From NCBI RefSeq assembly GCF_017309385.1, contig NZ_JAFJMJ010000001.1, forward strand, positions 2,604,001 through 2,668,000: a stretch of DNA of 64,000 nt. The letters are read 5' to 3'. This document shows positions 19,101-46,745 of the stretch, piece after piece. The first letter of the stretch is position 1; the number at the start of each line of letters is the position of its first letter. Under the pieces are notes generated by a model. It was given only the letters and a program-made list of their open reading frames with translations, did no database searches and was not told the origin of the DNA. The stretch is from Amycolatopsis sp. 195334CR (GTDB taxonomy: Bacteria > Actinomycetota > Actinomycetes > Mycobacteriales > Pseudonocardiaceae). The position numbers and the translations under genes are program-made.

Positions 19101-20945
19101 TCAGAACGCGGCTTCCGGCACGTCCATCAGGTCGTTGTCGGCCGCCTCGACGATCGCGCGCCGCGAGGTCAGCTCCGGCAGCACGCTCTTGGCGAAGAAC
19201 GAGGCCACCGCGATCTTGCCCTCGTAGAACGGGGTGTCCTTGGCGGAGGCGCCGCCGTCCAGCTTGGCGATGGCCACCTCGGCCGCGCGCAGCAGCTGCC
19301 AGCCGACCAGCAGGTCGCCCGCCGACATCAGCAGGCGCACGGTGTGCTGGCCCACCTTGTTGATGTTCTGCGGGTCCTCCTGCGAGGAGGTCAGCTGCCC
19401 GATCATCGCGCCCAGCATGCCCTGGGTGTCCTCGAGCGCCTGCTTGAGCAGCGCGCGCTCGTTCTTGAGCCGGCCGTTGCCGCTCTCGGCGTCGATGAAC
19501 TTGGTGATCTCGTTCGCGATGTGGCCGAGCGCCTGGCCCTTGTCGCGGACGATCTTCCGGAAGAAGAAGTCGAGCGACTGGATGGCCGTGGTGCCCTCGT
19601 ACAGCGAGTCGATCTTGGCGTCGCGGATGTACTGCTCGATCGGGTAGTCCTGCAGGAAACCCGAGCCGCCGAAGGTCTGCAGCGACTGCACCAGCTGCTC
19701 GGTGGCGCGCTCGGAACCCACGCCCTTGACGATCGGCAGCAGCAGGTCGTTGACCCGCTCGGCCAGCTTCAGCTCGTCCTCGGTGCCCTCCTGGGTCCAC
19801 AGCTGGTCCTGGAAGGAGGCGGTGTACAGGTAGACCGCGCGCAGGCCCTCGGCGTAGGCCTTCTGCAGCATCAGCGAGCGGCGGACGTCCGGGTGGTGCG
19901 TGATGGTCACCCGCGGCGCGGCCTTGTTCAGCATGTTCGGCAGGTCGGCGCCCTGGACCCGCTCCTTGGCGAACTCGAGCGCGTTCAGGTAGCCGGTGGA
20001 CAGCGTGGCGATCGCCTTGGTGCCGACCATCATCCGGGCGTACTCGATCACCTGGAACATCTGCGCGATGCCGTCGTGCACCTCGCCGAGCAGCCAGCCC
20101 TTGGCCGGGGTGCCGTGCTGGCCGAAGGTCAGCTCGCAGGTGGTGGACACCTTGATGCCCATCTTGTGCTCGACGCCGGTGACGTAGGCGCCGTTGCGCT
20201 CGCCCAGCTCACCGGTCTCGCCGTCGAAGTGGAACTTCGGCACCAGGAACAGCGACAGGCCCTTGGTGCCCGGCTTGGTCTCGATGCCGGGACCCTCCGG
20301 GCGCGCCAGCACCAGGTGCATGATGTTCTCGGTCAGGTCCTGCTCGGCCGAGGTGATGAACCGCTTCACCCCGTCGAGGTGCCAGGAGCCGTCCTCCTGC
20401 AGCACCGCCTTGGTGCGGCCGGCGCCCACGTCCGAACCGGCGTCCGGCTCGGTGAGCACCATGGTGGCGCCCCAGGACTTGTCGATCATCAGCTGCGCCC
20501 AGCGCTTCTGCTCGTCGGTCCCGTTCTTGTTCACGATCATCGCGAAGTTCGGGCCCGCCATGTACATGAACAGCGGCGGGTTCGCGCCGAGGATCAGCTC
20601 GGAGGCCGCCCACTGCACGGTCGGCGGCAGGCCGAAGCCGCCGAGGTCGTTGGTCAGGCCGAGGCGCCACCACTCGCCGTCGTAGAGCTGCTCGTAGCTC
20701 TTCTTGAAGGACTCGGGCAGCTTCACCGAGAAGGTCTTGGGGTCGTACACCGGCGGGTTGCGGTCCGCGTCGGCGAACGACTCGGCCAGCGGGCCGGTGG
20801 CGAGCTTGTTCAGCTCACCCAGCACACCGCGGGCGGTCTCCTCGTCGGATTCGGCGAGCACGCCCTTGCCGAGGCGCTCCTGCACGCCGAGGACTTCGAA
20901 GAGGTTGAACTCGAGGTCTCGGACGTTGCTCTTGTAGTGGCCCAT
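19101..20945 (-). CDS. fadE5: long-chain acyl-CoA dehydrogenase, FadE5 type
   Basis: 614 residues, the length of mycobacterial FadE5 rather than the 380-400 of ordinary acyl-CoA dehydrogenases. Flavoenzyme for the first step of beta-oxidation, passing electrons to ETF. Seen in sequence: N-terminal [17 protein letters not shown] typical of this subfamily, flavin-site [34 protein letters not shown], and an extra C-terminal helical region of about 200 residues ([19 protein letters not shown] and beyond). It is a single-gene transcript with its own terminator, preceded by one perfect and one near-perfect copy of the palindrome that also precedes the etfD-like gene. Confidence 0.88.
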
Positions 20946-21001: not shown

Positions 21002-21039
21002 CTACTGGCCGGTAACTTCAGGGTATTACCTGTCGGTAA
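21002..21039. promoter_or_regulatory. tandem palindromic operator upstream of fadE5
   Basis: TTACC-TGTC-GGTAA at 21026-21039 is a perfect 5+5 inverted repeat with a 4-nt spacer. CTACT-GGCC-GGTAA at 21002-21015 matches the same plan with one half-site change. Centres are 24 bp apart. The fadE5 ATG is 57-94 bp away. The spacing and symmetry fit a TetR-family repressor. Confidence 0.6.
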
Positions 21040-23811: not shown

Positions 23812-23953
23812 GCCAAGAACGTTAGGAATTCGCAGGTCCCGGCCGCTTCAGTCGAAAAGCCGCCGGCTCGGCCGGGTGGTCGGCCAGATGGCCGAGGCGG
23901 CCACCGGCCGGGTGGCCGGGGTGGCAGAACCTACCCTCGGTAAGTTTTGAGTG

Positions 23954-23967
23954 TTACCGTCGGGTAA
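23954..23967 (+). promoter_or_regulatory. palindromic operator overlapping promoter and start codon
   Basis: TTACC-GTCG-GGTAA, a perfect inverted repeat of the same type as that before fadE5. It contains the possible -10 TACCGT (23955-23960), and its last base is the A of the ATG. A related imperfect repeat (TACC-CTC-GGTA) lies about 22 bp upstream. Confidence 0.6.
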
Positions 23968-24752
23968 TGGGCAAGGTGGCCTTCGACCGGACGGGGTCCG
24001 GGGAACCGCTGGTGCTGATCCACGGGGTCGGGCACCGGCGACAGGCGTGGGCACCGGTGGTGCCGCTGCTCGCGCCGCACCGCGAGGTGATCTCGGTGGA
24101 CGTGCCCGGCTTCGGCGAGTCGCCGATGTCGGACAAGCCGTTCACGCTGGAGAACGGGATCGAGGCGATGGCGGAGTTCTTCGCCGAGCAGGGCCTCGAC
24201 CGGCCGCACGTGGCGGGCAACTCGATGGGCGGGCTGTTCGCGCTCGGCCTCGGGCAGCGGGGCCTGGTCCGCAGCGTCACCGCGCTCTCCCCCGCCGGGT
24301 TGTGGACGCGACGCCAGCAGCTGCACGCGTTGCGGGTTCTTCGTGCACACCGCCACGCGGCCCAGCGCATGCCCGCCGGGGTGGCGCGACGGCTCGCGGC
24401 CAGTCCGGCCGGGCGGCGCGCCATGGTCGGGCTGATCGTGGCCAAGCCCGCGCGCCTGGCCGCCGAAGTGGTGCTGGACGACCTGCGCGCCTTCGCCAGT
24501 GCGCCCGGGTTCGCGCCGGCGATCGCCGCGGGCCGGGACATCCGGTTCGACGGCCAGGTGGCCGATGTCCCGGTGACCATCGCGTGGGGGCAGTACGACC
24601 GCATCGTCTTCCCGCCGCGCGTCGCCGAACTCCGCCGCATCGCGCCGCAGGCCGAACTGCTGCGCCTGCCGGGCTGCGGCCACGTGCCGATGAGTGACGA
24701 TCCGGAACTGGTCGCGCACGTATTGTTGACCGGCAGCGAATTTACCCAGTAG
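23967..24752 (+). CDS. alpha/beta hydrolase
   Basis: 261 residues. Classic fold: LVLIHGVGHRRQAW (oxyanion hole), nucleophile elbow GNSMGG with Ser86, acid Asp in WGQYDRIVFP and His in LPGCGHVPMSDDP. A helical cap domain rich in Arg and Ala lies between residues 110 and 185. Likely an esterase, lipase-like or haloalkane-dehalogenase-like enzyme; the palindrome over its start, shared with fadE5 and etfD-like genes, suggests a role in fatty-acid or ester catabolism. That link is an inference. Confidence 0.85.
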   Translation: MGKVAFDRTGSGEPLVLIHGVGHRRQAWAPVVPLLAPHREVISVDVPGFGESPMSDKPFTLENGIEAMAEFFAEQGLDRPHVAGNSMGGLFALGLGQRGLVRSVTALSPAGLWTRRQQLHALRVLRAHRHAAQRMPAGVARRLAASPAGRRAMVGLIVAKPARLAAEVVLDDLRAFASAPGFAPAIAAGRDIRFDGQVADVPVTIAWGQYDRIVFPPRVAELRRIAPQAELLRLPGCGHVPMSDDPELVAHVLLTGSEFTQ

Positions 24753-43403: not shown

Positions 43404-45701
43404 TTACTTGTCCTCTTCGGACAGTGGCGTGCCGGTCGGCACCTTGTCCGTCGGGATGTCCTGCTTCTCCTCCAGCGGGTCCGACCCGTTCTCCGGCAGC
43501 GAGGTGTCCACCGCGGACGGTGCCGGGGCCGGCTTGCGCTTGACCGCGGTGAGCAGCAGCTGCGCCACGTCCACCACTTCGACCTTCTCGCTGGCGAGCC
43601 CGTCGCTCTGGCGCGAGGTGACCCCGTCGGTCAGCATCACGCGGCAGAACGGGCACCCGGTGGCGATCTTCGACGGCGCGGTGCCGAGGGCCTCGTCCAC
43701 CCGCTCCACGTTGATCCGCTTGCCGATGCGCTCTTCCATCCACATCCGGGCGCCACCGGCACCGCAGCACATCGACCGGTCGCCGTGCCGCGGCATCTCC
43801 CGCAGCGCGGCCCCCGAAGCGCCGACCAGTTCACGCGGCGCGTCGTAGACCTTGTTGTGGCGGCCCAGGTAACACGGGTCGTGGTAGGTGACGTCCTCGG
43901 CGATCGGCGCCACCGGGACCAGCCGCTTCTCCCGCACCAGGCGGTTCAGCAGCTGCGTGTGGTGCACCACCTCGTACTGCCCGCCCAGCTCCGGGTACTC
44001 GTTCGCGAGCGTGTTGAAGCAGTGCGCGCAGGTCACCACGATCTTGCGCTTGAGCGGTTCGACGTCCTCGAATACCGAGTTCAGCACCTCGACGTTCTGC
44101 TGCGCGAGCATCTGGAAGACGAACTCGTTGCCCGCGCGGCGAGCCGGGTCACCGGTGCAGGTCTCCTCCGGGCCGAGCACGGTGTACTTGACGTCGGCCA
44201 TGTGCAGCAGTTCGGCCACCGCGCGGGTGGTCTTCTTCGCGCGGTCCTCGAAGGCGCCGGCGCAGCCGACCCAGAACAGGTACTCGGTGTCGCCGAACTC
44301 GCCGTCGAACACCGGTACCTCGAAGTCCAGGTCCTCCGCCCAGGCCAGCCGGTCCTTGGCGTTCTGGCCCCACGGGTTGCCCTTGTTCTCCAGGTTCTTG
44401 AACATCCCGTTCAGCTCGGTCGGGAAGTTCGACTCGATCATCACCTGGTAGCGGCGCATGTCGACGATGTGGTCCACGTGCTCGATGTCCACCGGGCACT
44501 GCTCCACGCAGGCACCGCAGCTGGTGCACGACCACAGCACCTCGGGATCGATCACGCCGAGCTCGTCCGGGCCGCCGATCAGCGGGCGCTCGGCCTCGGC
44601 CAGCGCCAGCACGTCGATGCCCGCGTGGGGGTTGTCCCCGGTGAGGCCGACCTCTTCCCCGGTGACGTCCTTGCGGCCGCCGGCGAGCAGGTACGGCGCC
44701 TTCGCGTAGGCGTGGTCGCGCAGCTGCGTGATCACCAGCTTCGGCGAGAGCGGCTTGCCGGTGTTCCACGCCGGGCACTGCGACTGGCAGCGGCCGCATT
44801 CGGTGCAGGTGGTGAAGTCCAGCCAGCCCTTCCAGCTGAAGTCCTCGATCTTGCCCGCGCCGAAGACGTCCTTCTCCGGGTCGGCCTCCTCGAAGTCGAG
44901 CGGCTTGCCGTCGCTCATCATCGGCTTGAGCGCGCCCAGCGCCACGCCGCCGTCGTCCTCGCGCTTGAAGTAGATGTTGAAGAAGGCGCTGAACCGGTGC
45001 CAGGCCACACCCATGGTCATGTTCCTGGCCACCACGTACAGCCAGACCACCGCGCTCATCAGCTTGACGAAGGCGAAGGCGGAGACCAGGTTCCCGCTGG
45101 CGGGCAGCAGGTTGCCGAGCGGCTCGGAAACAAAACCGGCCCACAGCGGCAGGTCGTGCGAGCCCATCGCGGACTTCGCCGCGCGGACGCCGAGGATACC
45201 GAGGCCCTCGATGATCACCACGGCCTCGACGAAGTAGGCCGACTTGAAGCTCGACCCGGCGAACCGCGAGACGCGGTCGGCGCGGCGCGGGTGGTTGGCC
45301 TGGCGGATCAGCGCGAGCGCGATGCCGCCGATCACGGTGCCGACACCGAGGATCTCCATCAGCAGGTGCCACAGCGACCAGTGGTCCAGGATCGGCCAGC
45401 CCCAGGTGGGCACGAAGACCTCACCGTAGGCCTCGAACAGGGCCAGCGAGCCGATCAGGAAGCCCCACATCACCAGCCAGTGCCACGGGCCGACGTGCTT
45501 GAGCTTGTTCATCCGCGTGTGCGCGGCGAACTCCTTGATCAGGGTTTTCATCCTGGGCGCGAACGGGCCGCGCCGGGTCGGGTCCGGCTGGCCGAGTCGG
45601 ATGATCTTGACGAAGCGCACGATCGTCGCGGCGAACATGCTCCAGGCGACCAGGCTGACCGCGACGGCGATCAGCCCGAGCGTGAGCTGTACAGCACCCA
45701 T
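43404..45701 (-). CDS. etfD: membrane Fe-S oxidoreductase, EtfD type (ETF:menaquinone reductase)
   Basis: 765 residues. About six membrane helices in the first 235 residues (NarI-like heme b domain with several His), then two 4Fe-4S motifs, CTECGRCQSQCP and CTSCGACVEQCP, and two CCG domains (VGCAGAFEDRAKKTTR..., HDPCYLGRHNKVYD, MCCGAGGARMW). This is the layout of M. tuberculosis Rv0338c (EtfD), needed for fatty-acid oxidation, which takes electrons from acyl-CoA dehydrogenases via ETF to menaquinone. A Pro/Asp-rich tail of about 45 residues ends the protein. A palindrome shared with fadE5 lies 57-70 bp upstream. Confidence 0.88.
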   Translation of the reverse strand: MGAVQLTLGLIAVAVSLVAWSMFAATIVRFVKIIRLGQPDPTRRGPFAPRMKTLIKEFAAHTRMNKLKHVGPWHWLVMWGFLIGSLALFEAYGEVFVPTWGWPILDHWSLWHLLMEILGVGTVIGGIALALIRQANHPRRADRVSRFAGSSFKSAYFVEAVVIIEGLGILGVRAAKSAMGSHDLPLWAGFVSEPLGNLLPASGNLVSAFAFVKLMSAVVWLYVVARNMTMGVAWHRFSAFFNIYFKREDDGGVALGALKPMMSDGKPLDFEEADPEKDVFGAGKIEDFSWKGWLDFTTCTECGRCQSQCPAWNTGKPLSPKLVITQLRDHAYAKAPYLLAGGRKDVTGEEVGLTGDNPHAGIDVLALAEAERPLIGGPDELGVIDPEVLWSCTSCGACVEQCPVDIEHVDHIVDMRRYQVMIESNFPTELNGMFKNLENKGNPWGQNAKDRLAWAEDLDFEVPVFDGEFGDTEYLFWVGCAGAFEDRAKKTTRAVAELLHMADVKYTVLGPEETCTGDPARRAGNEFVFQMLAQQNVEVLNSVFEDVEPLKRKIVVTCAHCFNTLANEYPELGGQYEVVHHTQLLNRLVREKRLVPVAPIAEDVTYHDPCYLGRHNKVYDAPRELVGASGAALREMPRHGDRSMCCGAGGARMWMEERIGKRINVERVDEALGTAPSKIATGCPFCRVMLTDGVTSRQSDGLASEKVEVVDVAQLLLTAVKRKPAPAPSAVDTSLPENGSDPLEEKQDIPTDKVPTGTPLSEEDK

Positions 45702-45757: not shown

Positions 45758-45771
45758 TTACTCATCAGTAA
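45758..45771. promoter_or_regulatory. palindromic operator upstream of the etfD-like gene
   Basis: TTACT-CATC-AGTAA, a perfect inverted repeat on the same TTACY-N4-RGTAA plan as the sites before fadE5 and the alpha/beta hydrolase. A TACCCT hexamer lies just downstream on the minus strand (45750-45745), so the site would cover the promoter. Confidence 0.6.
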
Positions 45772-45852: not shown

Positions 45853-46179
45853 ATGGGCGCGTACCTTCTCCTGGCCGTCGCCATCGCGGGCGAAGTGACG
45901 GCCACCATCTCACTGAAACTGTCCGAGGGCTTCTCGAAGCCGATCCCCTCGGTGATCGTGGTGCTCGGGTACGGGCTCGCCTTCGCGATGCTCGCCCAGG
46001 TGCTCAAGGCCGGTCTGCCGATCGGCGTGGCGTACGCGATCTGGGCGGCGGCCGGGGTCGCGCTGGTCGCCCTGATCGGCGCGGTCTTCTTCAGCGAGAG
46101 CCTCAACTGGACCATGGGCGCCGGCCTGGTGCTGGTCATGGCCGGTGTGGTGCTGCTGGAAGTGGGGCGGTCGCATTGA
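45853..46179 (+). CDS. SMR-family multidrug efflux transporter
   Basis: 108 residues, four helices. The essential membrane Glu of the EmrE family is in AIAGEVTATISLKLSEGF (Glu14), and the helix-3 signature PIGVAYAIWAAAGV and the last-helix AGVVLLEVG are typical. Exports cationic antiseptics or dyes in exchange for protons as an antiparallel dimer. Its stop codon overlaps the start of a TetR gene (TTGA), so pump and regulator are coupled. Confidence 0.92.
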   Translation: MGAYLLLAVAIAGEVTATISLKLSEGFSKPIPSVIVVLGYGLAFAMLAQVLKAGLPIGVAYAIWAAAGVALVALIGAVFFSESLNWTMGAGLVLVMAGVVLLEVGRSH

Positions 46180-46745
46180 GCGCGCTGAAGCGGCAGACGG
46201 ACGGCCGCAAGGCTCGCGGGGAGAAGCGGCGCGCGGAGATCATCGACGCCACGCTGCGGGTGATCGAACGCGACGGCGTCGCCGGGGTCACCCACCGCAC
46301 GGTGGCCGCCGAGGCCGAGGTGCCGCTGACCTCGACCACCTACCACTTCGACAGCCTCGACGACCTGCTGATCGCCACCCTCATCTCGTGCGCGCGCGAC
46401 ATGGCGACCGAGGTGTACTGGATGATCGACCGCGCCCGCTCGCGCGGCAGCCGGGGTGCCGAGGAGGTCGCGTCGCTGCTCGCCGAGGCGCTCGGGCCGC
46501 GGCGCGGGCGCACGATGGCGGAGTACGAGCTGTACCTGCTCGCCGCGCGGCGGCCGGAACTGCGCCCCGCCGCCCGGCGCTGGCTGGATGTGCTCACCTC
46601 GATGGTCCGGCATGATGACGAGGTGGCGTTCAGGGTGTTCCTCGCGGGGATCGACGGCCTGCTGGTGCAGGGCCTGATCGACGACGAACCGCCGTCGGCG
46701 GAGGAACTGCGGCCGGTGGTCGACTACCTGCTGAAGCCGCGCTGA
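46176..46745 (+). CDS. TetR-family regulator of the SMR unit
   Basis: 189 residues. HTH region: RRAEIIDATLRVIERDGVAG, VTHRTVAAEAEVPLTSTTYHF. It begins with TTG 46176, overlapping the SMR stop, because no ATG or GTG lies between this and the HTH. The stop overlaps the ATG of the serine hydrolase gene by one base. The near-palindrome in the SMR promoter is the obvious target. Confidence 0.85.
   Translation: MSALKRQTDGRKARGEKRRAEIIDATLRVIERDGVAGVTHRTVAAEAEVPLTSTTYHFDSLDDLLIATLISCARDMATEVYWMIDRARSRGSRGAEEVASLLAEALGPRRGRTMAEYELYLLAARRPELRPAARRWLDVLTSMVRHDDEVAFRVFLAGIDGLLVQGLIDDEPPSAEELRPVVDYLLKPR

Follow-up and report, generated by a model that had tools for sequence, protein, structure and literature searches.

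The whole 64-kb stretch of DNA that was analysed, referred to here as the window, carries one palindromic sequence at three genes, fadE5, an alpha/beta hydrolase gene and an etfD-type gene. The features, in window positions, are:

19101..20945, minus strand: fadE5, acyl-CoA dehydrogenase of 614 aa (Pfam PF12806/PF02770/PF00441; best PDB match 6kpt)
21002..21015: predicted fadE5 operator, proximal copy CTACT-GGCC-GGTAA = CTACTGGCCGGTAA, one mismatch, 56 nt from the fadE5 start codon
21026..21039: predicted fadE5 operator, distal copy TTACC-TGTC-GGTAA, perfect, 80 nt from the fadE5 start codon
23954..23967: perfect palindrome TTACC-GTCG-GGTAA, its last base being the A of the hydrolase ATG; not conserved
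23967..24752, plus strand: alpha/beta hydrolase of 261 aa (Pfam PF12697/PF00561)
43404..45701, minus strand: etfD-type membrane Fe-S oxidoreductase of 765 aa (Pfam CCG and 4Fe-4S domains)
45758..45771: predicted etfD operator TTACT-CATC-AGTAA, perfect, 56 nt from the etfD start codon

The structure 6kse, a PDB match of the fadE5 product, carries the name FadE5; the name etfD is used here on the basis of domain make-up and of likeness to the label given in the initial annotation. A pattern scan of the window confirmed three perfect inverted repeats with a 4-nt spacer, at 21026-21039, 23954-23967 and 45758-45771, and these were the sole perfect matches to TTACYNNNNRGTAA, as the initial annotation had claimed both for the identical spacing and for the lack of any further perfect copy. 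No match to TTACYNNNNRGTAA was obtained in 100 dinucleotide shuffles of the window. A scan of the whole genome (9.93 Mb), which the same annotation had proposed, yielded nine perfect sites against three for the reversed-pattern control, an enrichment of about threefold that does not refute a shared operator; chance may account for some of the nine. When one mismatch was allowed, 92 sites were found against 60 in the control, so that one-mismatch sites say little unless conserved, and single matches of this kind were not trusted as targets by themselves.

In the window, the proximal and distal copies before fadE5 are 24 bp apart. For comparison with mycobacteria, named genomes were scanned with mycobacterial FadE5, and 80 loci were kept of the 385 found. 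A perfect site was present within 350 bp upstream of the start in 79 of the 80, and the single locus without one (L041) had two one-mismatch sites; the reversed pattern gave no match in 1.6 Mb. Tandem sites with at most one mismatch, 25-27 bp apart, were present in 66 of the same 80 promoters, and the fadE5 promoter of genome G083 showed two perfect sites at a spacing of 25 bp. One locus of this set (L046), on a contig labelled as an Acidobacteria MAG, was 86% identical to the mycobacterial query and had the same operator pair; it probably derives from a mislabelled or contaminated bin. Perfect sites also preceded both fadE5 (5/5) and etfD (5/5) in five genomes picked by hand, which were single-contig, belonged to five genera including that of the present organism, and were positive for the regulator FdmR described below.

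Upstream regions were further compared in 120 other genomes of the order and in the present genome, with the best 30 loci taken for each gene. Eighteen of the best 30 etfD regions (from 113 genomes) had a perfect site and 26 had a site with at most one mismatch. The four etfD promoters without a site all belonged to family f4, in which FdmR gave no hit, and other f4 members retained one. Upstream of the FadA thiolase gene, 29 of the best 30 regions (from 82 genomes) had a perfect site and all 30 had one with at most one mismatch. The etfB regions likewise had a site with at most one mismatch in 30/30 (nine perfect; best 30 of 79 genomes) and in eight of ten further regions picked by hand; the two misses among these ten were the two members of the present genus that were examined, the present genome and G076, which showed two mismatches each. 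A perfect site was also found in 53 of 54 mycobacterial fadA2/fabG4 divergent promoters. The initial annotation had placed a shared operator before fadE5 and etfD and had pointed to the upstream regions of their orthologues as the place to check it; the site was kept there in other genera and families, and the claim was not refuted.

EtfD is needed for beta-oxidation in M. tuberculosis, where control by IdeR and peroxide has been mentioned (PMC8593149). In the window, a plus-strand pair at 45853-46745, consisting of a gene for an SMR transporter (PF00893) and then a TetR gene, is divergent from etfD, and the etfD operator lies within the promoter common to etfD and the SMR transporter gene, which might therefore also respond. 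It could be argued that the palindrome serves this divergent pair and not etfD, since the site stands between the two genes with a TetR gene directly behind, and since sequence likeness indicates that the SMR/TetR arrangement is kept in G076 and the SMR gene in G083. However, the etfD site of G116, G091 and G111 has no further listed gene start within a distance of 500 bp, and the site is retained at the rate given above among the best 30 etfD promoters. Because the site persists where no divergent gene start is listed, the SMR/TetR pair was rejected as its owner, and this explanation is considered highly unlikely.

The initial annotation had joined all three genes of the window into one regulon, and this claim stood for fadE5 and etfD but not for the hydrolase. 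Among all 25 loci matching the hydrolase, the only perfect upstream site was that of the window itself; one-mismatch sites were found in three of the 24 homologues (G098, G045 and G036), all outside the family of the present organism, and none of four same-genus relatives had a site with at most one mismatch. In G118 a two-mismatch dyad, a remnant, was seen at about the same position. The hydrolase was rejected as a regulon member, its site not being conserved within the genus, and going by these comparisons the gene is probably not part of the conserved regulon. A separate TACC-CTC-GGTA dyad with a 3-nt spacer (window 23932-23942) lies 22 bp before the hydrolase palindrome.

The behaviour of the hydrolase site, together with the three sites that the reversed control still yields in the present genome, could suggest that chance matches or general conservation of promoters explain the palindromes. 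After shuffling, however, the upstream regions of etfD, FadA and the hydrolase yielded not a single match at the level of one mismatch or fewer, and the set of regulator promoters described below yielded 0.2 in 30. When 85 sites taken before fadA, etfD and etfB were averaged, the palindrome was lengthened by an outer G and an outer C to 16 bp, GTTACYNNNNRGTAAC; these two bases carried about 1.2 bits each, and neither had been selected by the search pattern, while the core values are partly a product of construction, as only sites with one mismatch or fewer had entered the set. Against general promoter conservation, most positions beyond these 16 bp carried less than 0.8 bits. A reading by chance or general conservation is contradicted for fadE5, etfD, fadA and etfB, and is regarded as very improbable. 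The hydrolase, malic enzyme, TPP enzyme and isocitrate dehydrogenase sites may still be matches of this kind.

The nine perfect sites of the genome adjoin genes for a 3-hydroxyacyl-CoA dehydrogenase, malic enzyme, fadE5, the hydrolase, etfD, a TPP enzyme, NADP isocitrate dehydrogenase, a second acyl-CoA dehydrogenase (standing behind an AIR-carboxylase gene) and a FadA-type thiolase. Five of the nine are straightforward genes of beta-oxidation or of ETF, namely the hydroxyacyl-CoA dehydrogenase, fadE5, etfD, the second acyl-CoA dehydrogenase and the FadA thiolase. One-mismatch sites in the same genome were sampled by reading 13 extra genome stretches, and were found before a crotonyl-CoA carboxylase/reductase gene (TIGR01751) and a methylmalonyl-CoA-mutase-type gene; homologues of both had perfect sites in relatives (L311, L283, L162). 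Another one-mismatch site, GTACTGGTCAGTAA (L022:2001-2014), precedes an MlaE-family permease gene, which possibly belongs to a lipid-import operon of the same regulon.

In the five chosen genomes 59 perfect sites were found, of which one was left out and three shared a locus with a neighbouring site, giving 55 loci. At 18 of these a neighbour strongly matched the gene set of the present genome, and seven more had an acyl-CoA dehydrogenase, ETF, desaturase, biotin carboxylase or carboxyltransferase neighbour (25/55 together). The neighbours at the other 30 were unrelated, had no assigned identity or were weakly similar (e.g. porin, GAPDH, peptidase, aldo/keto reductase). No homologue of the malic enzyme, the TPP enzyme or isocitrate dehydrogenase occurred among the neighbours of the 55 loci, and membership of these three genes is therefore unsupported. 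Among 30 one-site loci from across the order (L147-L176), which are not a random draw, 14 matched the present gene set by BLAST, four were etfB, one was of citrate-lyase type and one was AMP-binding (20/30); at the remaining ten the neighbour fell outside these groups. Genome G116 (family f8), taken as mycobacterial from its fadE5 promoter, had further sites before genes for a fatty acid desaturase, a biotin carboxylase, an acyl-CoA dehydrogenase and an ETF-domain protein.

The nature of these neighbours also bears on GlnR as a reader of the sites. The GlnR box, GTnAC-N6-GaAAC, resembles GTTAC-N6-GTAAC in its half-sites and spacing. The identified neighbours of the perfect sites in the present genome are, however, carbon and acyl-CoA genes, and neither glutamine synthetase nor an ammonium transporter was among the identified site neighbours in the five relatives, so that GlnR appears an extremely remote candidate.

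The mycobacterial loci point to a more plausible reader. In L030, L067 and L074 the gene order was fadE5, other genes, fadA2, fabG4, one further gene and a TetR gene. In L067 the further gene encodes the MaoC protein, and the TetR is presumably Rv0238, going by the gene order of M. tuberculosis. Rv0238 is the designation given to FdmR in PMC12403877, where FdmR is said to repress genes for the degradation and modification of fatty acids and to respond to long-chain acyl-CoA; fadE5 is regulated by it (PMC9262360). The best match to the mycobacterial TetR in the present genome was at G000:C1:2592646-2593233 (43% identity, E 5e-40; next match 1.9e-19), within a gene at G000:C1:2592604-2593263 on the minus strand, 31.7 kb from fadE5 and about 11 kb outside the left end of the window. 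Its neighbours corresponded to those in L067, with 70% identity for the thiolase, 55% for the reductase and 40% for the MaoC protein, and its closest solved relative was 3f1b, followed by FasR. The initial annotation had expected a TetR-type reader encoded elsewhere, and with this FdmR orthologue such a candidate was indeed found outside the window.

A site in the regulator's own promoter is a usual trait of TetR regulators. A perfect site precedes the TetR gene in L074. In the present genome fdmR is divergent from an SCP2 gene, and the promoter shared by the two contains TTACCGGAGAGTAG, with one mismatch, and CTACTGACGGGTAG, with two; the fadA2-fabG4 interval contains CTACTCGCTAGTAG, also with two mismatches. 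Over the order, fdmR promoters had a perfect site in four and a site with at most one mismatch in 18 of the best 30 loci (from 47 genomes), compared with 0.2/30 with at most one mismatch in shuffled regions. Mycobacterial fdmR promoters were divided between at most one mismatch (21/45) and two or more (24/45), and within the present genus the site was often degenerate, with two mismatches in five of six other members.

An FdmR-like TetR was found in 47 of 121 genomes at E 1e-25, a cut-off that may admit the nearest FdmR paralogue, as second matches in family f1 reach E 5e-38. Genomes with such a protein had 11.6 perfect sites on average (n=47; control 1.3) and those without had 3.4 (n=74; control 0.9), a comparison between genomes that share ancestry and so are not independent samples. 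By analogy with mycobacterial FdmR, the orthologue of the present organism would sense acyl-CoA, bind the sites and repress the genes behind them.

A related acyl-CoA-responsive TetR, FasR, might read the sites alone or in competition with FdmR. The present genome encodes a FasR orthologue (E 1.3e-58 to 6o6p, which is FasR; PMC7382501), and a one-mismatch site, TTACTCGTCGGTAC (L111:2166-2179), lies between its gene and a divergent hydrolase-like gene. FasR (Rv3208), whose operator is at fas-acpS, also senses long acyl-CoAs, and the oligonucleotide of its co-crystal contains a TAC-N6-GTA dyad (PMC7382501); the published TAC-N6-GTA motif likewise occurs before fas (PMC3388012). In contrast, FasR is described as activating the synthesis of fatty acids and not as repressing their degradation (PMC7382501), and the recognition-helix residues of the two proteins in the present genome differ, being SKPVLYQHFPGK in the FasR orthologue and SKPMIYTYLGSK in the FdmR orthologue. 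The number of sites, moreover, follows FdmR-like TetRs, as in the comparison above, whereas G064, with a FasR orthologue but no FdmR, had seven sites, and G092, in which the best FdmR match is FasR-like going by neighbours alone, had one. FasR as the reader, alone or in competition with FdmR, is considered unlikely, though more probable than the alternatives above.

The FdmR-negative families have to be considered separately. In family f16 (14 genomes sampled) no FdmR-like TetR was found at E 1e-25, and families without a detectable FdmR, f16 included, retained sites before fadE5, fadA and etfB, indicating that across the order the sites must have some reader besides FdmR. In the FdmR-negative genome G064 the best match to FdmR was the FasR orthologue. 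Scanning of 55 TetR loci of this genome (56 of 57 TetR_N matches) gave no site with at most one mismatch and no YTACYNNNNRGTAR dyad, and thus no self-regulated TetR was found there. When its TetRs were ranked by HMM, a tandem-TetR locus came first for the helix region and the FasR orthologue for the full length. The tandem locus (L397, L398), the top match to the HMM of the FdmR recognition region, has, within a single long open frame, two TetR_N domains at a spacing of about 580 bp and is perhaps of the Mce3R type. The reader in FdmR-negative families would be either FasR or some other protein.

Two published mycobacterial systems resemble the present one. McGuire et al. (2012) described a palmitate-associated TAC-N6-GTA core before desaturase, oxidoreductase and fas genes in mycobacteria (PMC3388012), which agrees with the present sites in core, spacing, occurrence as two to three tandem sites and association with fatty acid genes. 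The motif section of that paper lists Rv3229c, Rv3230c and Rv2524c (fas) and names no regulator, and the word fadE5 is absent from its main text (PMC3388012). Literature searches with six exact motif strings gave no match. The second system is the FdmR (Rv0238) regulon of mycobacteria, reportedly described by Dong et al. in 2021. It is alike in having a TetR with the same neighbours, fadE5 as a target and the same palindrome in mycobacterial promoters. It differs in that the present case belongs to another family, that FdmR is encoded 31.7 kb from fadE5 as against about 5-8 kb behind it in L030, L067 and L074, and that the present genome has sites also at the FadA thiolase (perfect) and, with one mismatch, at the crotonyl-CoA carboxylase/reductase and methylmalonyl-CoA-mutase-type genes.

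The same operator, a TetR orthologue, the core motif of 2012 and the known FdmR together point to an FdmR regulon in another family. We consider it likely, with a probability of roughly 0.83, that the fadE5 and etfD palindromes serve as operators in a single regulon of fatty acid oxidation, with the FdmR orthologue of this organism as their reader. Directly observed were the sites and their conservation, the regulator gene and its synteny, the site with one mismatch in the promoter of that gene, and the way in which site numbers go together with FdmR-like TetRs; the core claim, that fadE5 and etfD have an operator in common and that its reader is an acyl-sensing TetR encoded elsewhere, has good support. 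Judged from sequence, this is most likely a known kind of switch that is now seen in another bacterial family and that reaches the ETF route. A dimer of the FdmR orthologue would bind GTTACYNNNNRGTAAC with one subunit at each GTTAC half-site and, when bound, would block transcription. Accumulating long-chain acyl-CoAs would bind the regulator and cause it to leave the DNA, and the genes for the acyl-CoA dehydrogenase, thiolase, ETF and ETF-oxidising reductase would then be expressed together.

A broader and more tentative idea, which we hold to be somewhat less probable than its opposite, is that GTTACYNNNNRGTAAC is an order-wide address of beta-oxidation and its electron chain that has outlived its reader, the operators before fadE5, fadA and etfB being read by FasR or another regulator in families without a detectable FdmR. 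If this is true, the address covers the path that runs from FadE5 through EtfBA to EtfD and also takes in FadA and some of the ethylmalonyl-CoA route, and the network of operators is more lasting than the protein that reads it. The motif of 2012 that had no regulator, the mycobacterial repressor of 2021 and the ETF electron route are united here as one testable regulon in several families. For an actinomycete with a large genome, both a defined operator of fatty acid oxidation and a candidate for its regulator thereby become available, and the conservation of operators in families without a detectable known reader raises the question of regulator turnover.
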